Notes under the pieces: generated by a model
Databases searched by the model: none
Told to the model about the DNA's origin: nothing
What the model saw: the letters and a program-made list of their open reading frames with translations, nothing else
Assembly: GCF_003148775.1 (NCBI RefSeq)
Contig: NZ_QGGW01000003.1
Coordinates: 1-64,000 of the forward strand
DNA: 64,000 bases
Reading direction: 5' to 3'
DNA from: Roseicyclus mahoneyensis
GTDB lineage: Bacteria > Pseudomonadota > Alphaproteobacteria > Rhodobacterales > Rhodobacteraceae
Made by a program: the position numbers and the translations under genes
Shown here: positions 22,010-52,843 of the stretch, piece after piece
Layout: the number at the start of each line of letters is the position of its first letter
Position numbering within the stretch: the first letter of the stretch is position 1

Positions 22010-22351
22010 GGGCGGATGCCCCTTTCGCAAGTCTCGGTTGCCCCGAAATGTAAGGGGCCTGCCGCAAACACACCATGACCCCCGTGGGCGAAACCTCGCT
22101 GACGGGGGGCGATCCTGATACAATCAGGACCGGAGTGCTGGCGCATTCCGGATTACTGCGGGGCATATGCGGCACGATCGATGGAGTCAAGACATCGCCG
22201 GATGGTGCCGCGCCCCGCCACCGCACGATCTGCCACCGCGCGATGCGGCCTTCGGCACATGTCTGGTGGGGTCCATACGCCCCGCTTGCCTTTCCGCAAA
22301 CCGGCACGCAAGATCGATCTGGGGCAAAGTCGTGTGGGAGAGCGCACAGAA

Positions 22352-50023: not shown

Positions 50024-51421
50024 ATGCGTGCTGCGGGTAGTCGCTTTCTGATCGTCGGGCTTCTCGCCCTGCTGATGTTCATCCCGCTGTTCTTCGTGTC
50101 GGCGGTGATCGACGACCGGGGCAGCTTCAGCCGGCAGACCATGCGCGAGGTGGGTCAGGAATGGGGCGGCAGCCAGCTGTTGTCGGGCCCTGTCCTGATC
50201 GTGCCGGTGGAAGGGCCGGTGACGATCACGGACATGGCACAGCTCACCGATCCGGCCACCGGCCTGACCCGGCAAGAGCCGCGTACCCGCACCGAGATCC
50301 GGCCGCGCCCGCCGGTGCATCTGTTGCCGGAACGCTTCGATCTGGACCTCGCCACCACAACCGACACCCGCAGCCGCGGCATCTTTGATGTCACCGTCTA
50401 TTCGGCCGGGGCCCGCGCCGCGTTCGATTTCGACACGGCCGGCGCCGAGGGTCTTTTGACCGAGGGAGAGCGCCTGCTGTGGGATCAGGCCTATCTGCGT
50501 GTCACGGTGTCAGAAAACCGGGCGTTGCGGGGCGAGACCACGCTGACGGTCGATGGGCGCGATCTGGCACTGGAGCCGCGTGCCGATGGCATCGCGGGCG
50601 TAACCGCGGTGCTGGGCGACCCGCGAGAGGCGCGCGATTACGCCCTGACGCTGGGGTTCAACGGCGCCAGCGACCTTGCGGCCACGCCGATGGGACGGGC
50701 CACCCGCGTCACCATGACAAGTGATTGGCCGCATCCCAGTTTCTTTGGCGCCTTCCTGCCCGACCATTCCGAGATCAGCGAGGAGGGGTTCAGCGCCACC
50801 TGGACCATCCCGCATCTCGCCCGCCCTCTGCCGCAGGCCGCGCGCGAGGATTACGACGGCACGGCGCGGCAGCAATCGGGGTTCGGGGTGCGCTTCTTCC
50901 AGCCCAATGATTTCTATTCCCAGGCCTTCCGCGCCGCGCGCTACGGCATCTTGTTCATCGCGCTGACCTTCCTGACCGTGCTCTTGATCGAGAACCGCAC
51001 GGCGAAACCGACCCATCCGGTGCAATACATCCTGATCGGGCTGGCGCAGTCGATCTTTGTTCTGCTGATGGTATCCTATGCCGAACAGATCGGGTTCGGG
51101 CCCGCCTATGGCCTTTCGGCGGCTGCGACCACGATCTTGCTGACACTCTTCGGGTGGGTGGGCCTGAAACTTGGTCGCCGCAGCCTCGTGCTTGGGATCA
51201 TGCTGGCGGTGACCTACGGAGTTCTCTACCTGATCCTGCGCTCGGCCGATTATGCGCTGCTGGCGGGATCGACACTCGCCTTCCTCGCGCTGGCGCTGAC
51301 CATGTTCATGACCCGCAACGAGGATTGGTACGGCCCCGAGGGTGCCCGCAAGCCGTGGTTCGCGCCGGCGGGTCAGACCCCTGCGAGAGCCACCGGGCAA
51401 GACGGCGCAACACCGCGGTGA
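50024..51421 (+). CDS. creD: CreD-like inner membrane protein
   Basis: 465 residues. One N-terminal span (FLIVGLLALLMFIPLFFVSAVI), a large extracytoplasmic strand-rich part (about 30-310), then a group of five to six C-terminal spans beginning ARYGILFIALTFLTVLLIENRT. The sequence QTMREVGQEWGGSQLLSGPVLIVPV and RATRVTMTSDWPHPSFFGAFLPD are typical of CreD. E. coli CreD responds to the CreBC system and affects envelope integrity; no creBC genes are seen here. The ATG at 50024 fits the family start; the frame is open back to 49925. Confidence 0.82.
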   Translation: MRAAGSRFLIVGLLALLMFIPLFFVSAVIDDRGSFSRQTMREVGQEWGGSQLLSGPVLIVPVEGPVTITDMAQLTDPATGLTRQEPRTRTEIRPRPPVHLLPERFDLDLATTTDTRSRGIFDVTVYSAGARAAFDFDTAGAEGLLTEGERLLWDQAYLRVTVSENRALRGETTLTVDGRDLALEPRADGIAGVTAVLGDPREARDYALTLGFNGASDLAATPMGRATRVTMTSDWPHPSFFGAFLPDHSEISEEGFSATWTIPHLARPLPQAAREDYDGTARQQSGFGVRFFQPNDFYSQAFRAARYGILFIALTFLTVLLIENRTAKPTHPVQYILIGLAQSIFVLLMVSYAEQIGFGPAYGLSAAATTILLTLFGWVGLKLGRRSLVLGIMLAVTYGVLYLILRSADYALLAGSTLAFLALALTMFMTRNEDWYGPEGARKPWFAPAGQTPARATGQDGATPR

Positions 51422-51514
51422 CGCAGGGACAGCCGCGTGGCGCGACCAGAAAGACCCAAGCGACCACGCCAGGAAAAAAACCGCTGCGTCCCAAAAATAA
51501 TCACTTGCGCGAAT

Positions 51515-51577
51515 ATGCAAACGGCCTCATACGCCGCCGCAAGACGCCAACGCACGCGCCTCTGTCACGGGTGGTAA
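51515..51577 (+). CDS. Arg-rich 20-codon leader ORF upstream of ornithine decarboxylase
   Basis: The frame ATG 51515 to TAA 51575-51577 encodes MQTASYAAARRQRTRLCHGW. Four arginines in a row-like cluster suit a regulatory leader peptide for an ornithine/arginine-linked gene. There is no strong ribosome-binding site, so translation is unproven. See the leader RNA entry. Confidence 0.4.
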   Translation: MQTASYAAARRQRTRLCHGW

Positions 51578-51670
51578 TCCGGTCACCGGCCTAACCATCG
51601 CAGTTACGTAGCGACGGTAACGTCTCCCTTGGAATTTCGCGGGGCCACGGCCCCCGGTCTGTCGGAGATG
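51515..51670 (+). promoter_or_regulatory. Structured leader of ornithine decarboxylase (speF-motif candidate)
   Basis: The 252-base gap before the decarboxylase contains the leader ORF, a stem GTTAC/GTAAC (51603-51621 region), a hairpin GGGGC-CACG-GCCCC (51641-51654) and CGTCTCC at 51621-51627. That last segment can pair with GGAGATG at 51664-51670, which includes the ribosome-binding site, with one G-U pair. So the ribosome-binding site may be alternately hidden and free. Rfam lists a speF RNA motif upstream of ornithine decarboxylase in alphaproteobacteria; a match is plausible but not tested. Confidence 0.5.
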
Positions 51671-51673
51671 ACC

Positions 51674-52843
51674 ATGAACGCTACGATTGCCGATTTCTCG
51701 GCCTCCTTTCCTATTGCTTCCTCCCGTATCGCGGATTTCATCGCCGCGCACGAGTTTGATCGCCCGACGCTGGTGATCGACATCGACAGCGTCGAGGCGC
51801 AGTTCCATGCCCTGAACGCCGGTCTGGGCGACGCGACGATCCATTACGCCGTCAAGGCTAACCCGGCTGACGCCATCATCGACCGTCTGGTCGATCTGGG
51901 CTCGCATTTCGATGCCGCGTCGCGTGGCGAGATCGAGCTGTGCCTGTCGCATGGCGCGCACCCCGAGGCGATTTCCTTTGGCAACACGGTCAAGCGCGCC
52001 GCCGACATCGCCTTTGCGCATCGTGCGGGCATCACGCTTTACGCCGCCGACGCCGCGGAAGAGATCGCCAAGATCGCCGAGCATGCGCCGGGCGCCGAGG
52101 TCTATATCCGCCTGCTGGTCGAAGCCTCCGGCGCGGACTGGCCGCTCACGCGCAAGTTCGGCACCACCCGCGACACCGCGCTGCTCTTGATGGCGCAGGC
52201 GCGCGATCTGGGCCTGCGTCCCGCCGGCCTGAGCTTCCACGTCGGCAGCCAGACCCGCGACCCGGCAATGTGGGCCGATACGCTCGATCAGGTTGCGGCC
52301 GTGTGGCAGGCGGCCGTGGACGCGGGCTTTGATCTGGACCTTCTGAACATCGGCGGCGGCTTCCCGGCCTTCTACGGCGACGCGATCCCGCATCCGACCG
52401 TCTATGCCGCCCGTGTGATGGAGCAGGTGACAGCCCGCTTCCCCACAGGCATCCGCATCATGGCGGAGCCGGGCCGCGGTCTGGTCGCCGAGGCCGGCAT
52501 GATCGCCGCCGAAGTGCTGCTGGTCGCCAAGAAATCCGAGGATGACCTGCACCGCTGGGTCTACCTCGACATCGGCAAGTTCTCGGGTCTGGCCGAAACC
52601 ATCGACGAGGCGATCCGCTACCAGTTCGTGACGCCCCATGATGGCGAGGCGACCGGGCCATGCATTCTGGCCGGTCCGTCCTGCGACAGCGCGGATGTGC
52701 TGTACGAAAAGCGCCCGGTGTCGCTGCCGGTCTCGCTGAAATCGGGTGACAAGGTGATGATCCGCAACTGCGGGGCCTATACCTCCTCCTATTCCTCGGT
52801 CGGCTTCAACGGCTTTCCGCCGCTCGACGTCGTGGTGATCTGA
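51674..52843 (+). CDS. speF: Ornithine/lysine decarboxylase, fold type III PLP enzyme
   Basis: 389 residues, eukaryotic-type (alanine-racemase fold) decarboxylase that makes putrescine from ornithine. The PLP lysine is in HYAVKANP (about residue 57), with LDLLNIGGGFPAFYG for the phosphate loop, AEPGRGLVAEAG and the C-terminal catalytic GPSCDSADVL. The start at 51674 was chosen because GGAG lies 6 bases before it; the ATG at 51668 directly abuts that GGAG. Some members also act on lysine. The leader upstream suggests feedback by a polyamine-linked signal. Confidence 0.9.
   Translation: MNATIADFSASFPIASSRIADFIAAHEFDRPTLVIDIDSVEAQFHALNAGLGDATIHYAVKANPADAIIDRLVDLGSHFDAASRGEIELCLSHGAHPEAISFGNTVKRAADIAFAHRAGITLYAADAAEEIAKIAEHAPGAEVYIRLLVEASGADWPLTRKFGTTRDTALLLMAQARDLGLRPAGLSFHVGSQTRDPAMWADTLDQVAAVWQAAVDAGFDLDLLNIGGGFPAFYGDAIPHPTVYAARVMEQVTARFPTGIRIMAEPGRGLVAEAGMIAAEVLLVAKKSEDDLHRWVYLDIGKFSGLAETIDEAIRYQFVTPHDGEATGPCILAGPSCDSADVLYEKRPVSLPVSLKSGDKVMIRNCGAYTSSYSSVGFNGFPPLDVVVI

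Follow-up and report, generated by a model that had tools for sequence, protein, structure and literature searches.

In enterobacteria, ornithine decarboxylase (ODC) is controlled at the level of the speF leader, which depends on a translated leader peptide (the arrest peptide SpeFL). We know of no dedicated polyamine riboswitch class. In Alphaproteobacteria, the Rfam speF family (RF00518) is a leader of ODC genes; a conserved 5' stem with a large insertion was noted earlier by Corbino et al. in 2005 (PMC1273637), and a survey of 255 genomes lists speF with its ligand unknown (PMC3766115). A further Rfam family, ar45 (RF02347), is filed as a small RNA (sRNA). Its Bartonella representative, Bbar45, is expressed separately from speF, and the S. 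meliloti ar45 RNA co-precipitates with Hfq (PMC7717549). The odc1 motif (uORF-25-1; Brewer 2021, PMC8632094) is likewise an ODC leader, with the ribosome-binding site (RBS) in the 3' strand of its main stem, two UUG starts 2 nt apart and an overlapping 11-aa uORF about 75 nt from the 5' end. Additionally, the SAM-II leaders of S. meliloti metA and metZ represent an alphaproteobacterial leader class that gives either translational control or a terminated sRNA (PMC9373788). A search of 50 genomes (PMC11109978) mentions no ODC motif.

The window, i.e. the whole stretch of 64,000 nucleotides of Roseicyclus mahoneyensis DNA that was analysed, contains an ODC gene at positions 51674-52843 of the + strand. 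The 389-aa product is a fold-type III PLP decarboxylase with the Pfam domains Orn_Arg_deC_N and Orn_DAP_Arg_deC; its nearest PDB entry is the lysine/ornithine decarboxylase 2plj (E = 7.5e-56), and its best match is the R. marinus protein (95% identity). The Shine-Dalgarno sequence GGAG (51664-51667) and the start codon ATG (51674-51676) lie on the same strand (51664-51676), and GGAGA and ATG are invariant in the alignment described below. A preliminary description of this locus had proposed a regulatory ODC leader related to speF, with an arginine-rich uORF and a hidden RBS, and all the strings that it named were present at their positions in the window. The fold of 51480-51700 as a single sequence is ordinary (z -0.70), and an Rfam search at E <= 10 over 51400-51750 returned no family, so that the ar45 threshold was not reached; the speF covariance model RF00518 had no match in the window, nor any above noise in the genome. 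The question was therefore decided by comparison, and it is by comparison of leaders, not by the fold of one sequence, that the region holds as more than chance.

For this comparison, 61 distinct Rhodobacterales leaders from ODC loci were aligned, and a model (R1) was built from the alignment. The leaders share one order: block A comes first, then a hairpin whose length differs widely, then block B, another hairpin and finally TTGGAGATGACCATG. The sequences AGACGCCAACGCACGCGCCTCTG (51542-51564) and GTAGCGACGGTAACGTCTC (51608-51626) are almost invariant across the 61 leaders, the spacers are otherwise freely variable, and the invariant alignment positions fall almost wholly within the shared blocks. 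Block A (51542-51564, + strand) comprises the 5' strand of a helix P1, AGACG (51542-51546), and the core sequence CGCACGCGCC (51551-51560), whose counterpart in ar45 and in other alphaproteobacteria is CGCACGUGCC. It is followed by P2, a hairpin at 51565-51602 (+ strand) whose strands coevolve and whose place is taken in relatives by spacers of 20-63 nt. Block B (GTTACGTAGCGACGGTAACGTCTCC; 51603-51627, + strand) carries the core sequence GTAGCGACGG and the 3' strand of P1, CGTCT (51621-51625), and is at the same time the predicted RBS-masking strand. Judged from the alignment, the ODC 5'UTR contains a structured element at 51542-51685, conserved nearly to the letter in Rhodobacterales. With R1, the element was found in 63 of the 198 genomes sampled from the family, all of them among the 66 that have a close ODC, and in none of the 132 sampled genomes without ODC. 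The three ODC genomes that lack it are two whose ODCs are distant (41 and 55% identity; G008 and G017) and one in which the leader hits the contig end (G119). The proposal of a regulatory ODC leader is thus upheld by the conserved blocks in the 61 leaders, together with the predicted pairing of the RBS.

This pairing forms an anti-RBS helix (51607-51685, + strand) that is the minimum free energy structure in nearly all relatives. It consists of 51607-51613/51679-51685 (CGTAGCG/CGCTACG), 51616-51618/51671-51673 (GGT/ACC) and 51621-51627/51664-51670 (CGTCTCC/GGAGATG). The complementarity of CGTCTCC to GGAGATG, and the masking of the RBS by it, had already been pointed out; masking is predicted in nearly all relatives, and CGTCTC(C)/GGAGATG had a mean pairing probability of 0.91 when each leader was folded. 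The helix extends by GGT/ACC ahead of the start codon and by (GTTA)CGTAGCG, which pairs with codons 2 to about 8 or 9 of ODC. The strings GTTAC (51603-51607) and GTAAC (51617-51621) do occur, but the stem suggested for them is not the best-supported pairing, as GTTAC(GTAGCG) pairs better with ODC codons 2-9. The anti-RBS helix encloses the hairpin GGGGCCACGGCCCC (51641-51654, + strand) in its loop, and the relatives have a hairpin with different letters at this place.

Across the relatives, 73.3% of the cells are paired in the coding part of the helix and 98.2% in the RBS part, which is nearly invariant; covariation in the anti-RBS pairing was found for the coding-side half. The coding part coevolves with the block B side: among 29 dereplicated leaders, with shared ancestry only partly controlled, halves from the same gene paired at -10.1 kcal/mol vs -8.6 kcal/mol for crossed halves (1/5000 permutations). 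Exchanges are seen as GCAGCG/CGCTGC (L032, L036), AATGT/ACATT (L015), CACATG/CATGTG (L062) and GGTTACGT/ACGTAACC (L035). The better match within genes suggests that the leader has shaped the opening codons of ODC.

P1 (AGACG/CGUCU) and the anti-RBS helix share the strand CGUCU, as the comparison of leaders shows. Forcing P1 cost on average 9.7 kcal/mol in the full leader and only 1.6 kcal/mol before the RBS is made, so a closed RBS would be the default state as long as nothing stabilises the core. Taken together, we consider it probable, with good confidence, that 51542-51685 acts in cis as an RNA switch of the ODC 5'UTR, with two mutually exclusive folds and an effect at the level of translation, and that it is the compact Rhodobacterales form of an ar45-type polyamine-gene leader. 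In the proposed mechanism, the core, closed by P1 and topped by P2, would fold first during transcription. Once the RBS has been made, the anti-RBS helix, predicted to be about 10 kcal/mol better, would shut translation, with CGUCU and the following CC pairing with the Shine-Dalgarno sequence and the strand just 5' of them pairing with the first codons. A stabilised core would keep the RBS open (core formed = ON, a putative sign), and the putative signal, judged from the genes controlled, would belong to polyamine metabolism.

As P1 is invariant within Rhodobacterales, its covariation support was drawn from other orders. R1 also detects ODC leaders of further alphaproteobacterial families, with E values as low as 2.8e-8. 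Of 100 ODC leaders of the class that were examined, 43 contained the core CGCACGTGCC ... GCAACGACG, and 2 others had an approximate version of it. The layout throughout the class is P1, CGCACGYGCC, a variable P2, GCAACGACG and P1', and the P1 pairs that flank the core include GACGC/GCGTC, GACGT/ACGTC, CCGTC/GACGG and GCCC/GGGC, with AGACG/CGTCT in the window. Class-wide, the strands of P1 (no more than 8/10000 permutations) and of P2 (0/10000) coevolve, in tests that do not fully remove shared ancestry. In an alignment of 29 sequences (A2), 0/500 shuffles reached the covariation score, and slid partners lost their pairing.

A second model, R2, was built without Rhodobacterales and Rhizobiales sequences, and it matches both the Rhodobacterales leaders and the Rhizobiales ar45 RNAs at the right place. 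On the window, R2 matched 51539-51639 (E = 0.0017), which is borderline genome-wide (E = 0.1). One other place in the same genome (C12:1038) scored above the leader; it lies inside a coding ORF and does not contain the core strings, and was set aside as a chance match. The Shine-Dalgarno sequence is predicted to be masked outside Rhodobacterales too, where it pairs with a U-rich stretch after P1 (unpaired probability 0.17; 59/10000 permutations). There, the masking strand shares no more than one or two bases with P1; strict exclusivity of P1 and the RBS helix would therefore be a property of Rhodobacterales, and the sign of control could differ elsewhere. In Rhodobacterales, the start codon after the core is that of ODC. 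It is also observed that, outside Rhodobacterales, a start codon about 50-65 nt past the core often opens an ORF of 8-60 codons some 100-250 nt before the main gene; such short ORFs (L208-L218, L225, L229, L233, L108-L176) are possible leader peptides and have no obvious shared sequence.

Leaders of the Rhizobiales type (L067-L072, L128, L131) contain Rfam ar45 and then speF, back to back upstream of ODC, and the two look like halves of one leader, not like an sRNA gene plus a leader. The ar45 core CGCACGuGCC ... GCaACGaCG, the way in which P1, short inner helices and P2 are nested, and the site upstream of ODC are all shared with the window, where the core lies with few substitutions inside the P1-closed stem and is linked to ar45 through intermediate families by R1 and R2. 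The core letters are changed in the window (CGCACGcGCC, GYAGCGACGG), and those of P1 are wholly different. On these grounds, the Rhodobacterales element is a divergent homologue of RF02347, the RNA filed as an sRNA; ar45 was likewise not reported by Rfam for the leaders L012, L016, L035, L045 and L061. A second difference concerns the 3' side. In Rhizobiales, P1 is followed by the U-tract GGGCUUUUUU, which fits the separate ar45 transcripts of Bartonella and S. meliloti (PMC7717549). No such tract follows P1 in Rhodobacterales, where CGUCUCCCUUGG stands in the window and CGUCUCCCUUGG or CGUCUCUGA (CGUCUC(C/U)) in the relatives, and the element is joined straight to the RBS. RF00518, which directly follows ar45 in Rhizobiales, covers only the part 3' of ar45, and this part is missing in Rhodobacterales; with its reach limited to this 3' portion, the model fails to detect the Rhodobacterales leaders. 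The speF relation proposed in the preliminary description therefore stands as a kinship with the alphaproteobacterial speF leader and falls as a match to RF00518 itself, the homology being to ar45. The element is of a known kind, a structured cis-leader, and by its homology belongs with a described RNA, yet it goes unrecognised by Rfam. It resembles odc1 as an ODC leader whose RBS lies in the 3' strand of the main stem, and is set apart from that motif, as it is described, by an AUG start after GGAG and by the lack of a UUG pair and of the overlapping 11-aa uORF in the window.

With R2, 69 places were found in 55 of 337 genomes. Twenty-six places that do not lie directly before the ODC orthologue were examined; 4 lie at contig ends and 22 were readable. 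Twenty of the 22 readable copies precede polyamine biosynthesis genes, non-homologous ones included. A second decarboxylase of the Orn/DAP type, about 31% identical to the ODC of the window, follows 16 of the 22 copies, with homospermidine synthase behind it in 5 of the 16; another 3 copies stand directly before homospermidine synthase (solved-structure match, E = 5e-140), and one before SpeH-SpeE (speE by NCBIfam, SpeH by reading the sequence). The remaining two precede a class-I glutamine amidotransferase (PF00117, 257-1138; L227) and, in the case of a good core copy of 62 bits (L213), a 136-codon ORF of unknown kind. This pattern speaks for a cis-acting controller of one pathway, and the presence of copies before non-homologous polyamine genes speaks against ar45 as a solely trans-acting sRNA; the RNA filed under that name is probably a polyamine-gene control element. 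A homospermidine synthase is also encoded in the genome of the window (G000:C8:152151-153326; 57% identity), and no copy of the RNA was detectable at this gene.

The preliminary description had explained the control by ribosome stalling on an arginine-rich uORF, which would shift the pairing as in enterobacterial speFL. A 20-codon ORF with RRQRTR does exist in the window (MQTASYAAARRQRTRLCHGW; ATG at 51515 to TAA at 51577, + strand). In the alignment, all 61 relatives have [CA]TTG at -36 to -42 relative to block A, and a CATATGC-like -10 box, usual in the 61 leaders, ends about 9 bases 5' of block A; the promoter predicted from it (51505-51533, + strand) has its -35 element TTGCGC at 51505-51510 and its -10 element CATACG at 51528-51533. 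A scan with the strict sigma-70 consensus gave no site, and the promoter call rests on the alignment. From these boxes, the transcript is predicted to begin at about 51540 (51539-51542), at or just before block A. The uORF start codon thus lies in the promoter spacer, between the predicted -35 and -10 elements and about 25 nt 5' of the predicted transcript start. The ATG that recurs in relatives belongs to the -10 box and lies at -12 in 23/61 and at -11 in 17/61 leaders, so the frame of the uORF is not kept; its length ranges from 7 to 64 codons, its start codon is not kept in relatives, R. marinus included, and there is no start codon within block A. The apparent conservation of RRQRTR is merely a by-product of the conservation of the RNA. 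For these reasons 51515-51577 was rejected as a functional uORF, the expected conservation of the peptide among the 61 leaders was not found, and stalling on it is very unlikely, to the point that we hardly consider it. The leader of the window thus differs from SpeFL-type leaders in having no conserved translated peptide.

As to what would operate the switch, a strong form of the switch reading is that direct binding of a polyamine, or of an intermediate of the pathway, to the core shifts the balance between P1 and the RBS helix. Several features are consistent with a metabolite-binding riboswitch: the internal-loop core is invariant, the helices P1 and P2 that close it covary and there is an insertion of variable size, an RBS-masking platform lies downstream, and the positions are always in cis, ahead of non-homologous genes of one pathway. 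However, in-line probing of the A. tumefaciens leader showed no binding of six obvious ligands, sym-homospermidine not being among them (PMC1273637), and simple repression by the product would call for the reverse of the sign expected in Rhodobacterales (core folded = RBS open); we therefore regard ligand binding as a plausible but tentative explanation. Opening of the RBS helix by a protein or by heat, without any small ligand, would be compatible with the strong default RBS-masking helix and the invariant core; it appears rather unlikely, as a complex core kept across many families before several genes of one pathway points more typically to metabolite sensing. We give still less weight to action in trans, with ar45 as an independently ended sRNA and the leader as its source gene or target. 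The separate expression of Bbar45, the association of S. meliloti ar45 with Hfq (PMC7717549) and the Rhizobiales tract GGGCUUUUUU past P1 would fit it, but the copies before different polyamine genes are all in cis and on the same strand, the Rhodobacterales leaders have CGUCUCCCUUGG or CGUCUCUGA in place of a U-tract, and the element is strictly tied to ODC in this order. Moreover, a terminating riboswitch can also yield an sRNA, as does SAM-II in S. meliloti (PMC9373788), which differs from the present element in fold and genes and serves as an analogy only.

Returning to the riboswitch reading, it is possible, and suggested here with reserve, that ar45 represents a widely distributed class of riboswitches. 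Throughout Alphaproteobacteria, this class would sense a polyamine (sym-homospermidine is one candidate) or an intermediate of the pathway and so control ODC, homospermidine synthase and SpeH-SpeE, and its minimal translational form would be that of Rhodobacterales. Whatever the signal, the comparison makes the two unexplained Rfam entries ar45 and speF into adjoining parts of one polyamine-gene leader and provides this leader with a regulon. The compact natural versions (about 100-150 nt, beside the RBS) would suit ligand screening better than the 400-nt A. tumefaciens leader that was negative in 2005. In the open-licence papers searched we found no earlier description of the Rhodobacterales form, of the RBS-and-codon helix or of an ar45 polyamine regulon, and a mention elsewhere is possible.

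Two minor observations were made in the window. A small hairpin, GCCGATTTCTCGGC, lies in ODC codons 5-11 (51686-51705) and recurs in relatives with other letters; at -9.1 vs -7.0 kcal/mol elsewhere in the same genes it is only mildly stronger, and it is not claimed as part of the element. Additionally, the sole Rfam match above threshold in the 64 kb is an ffh RNA (RF01793) at 22071-22123 of the - strand.
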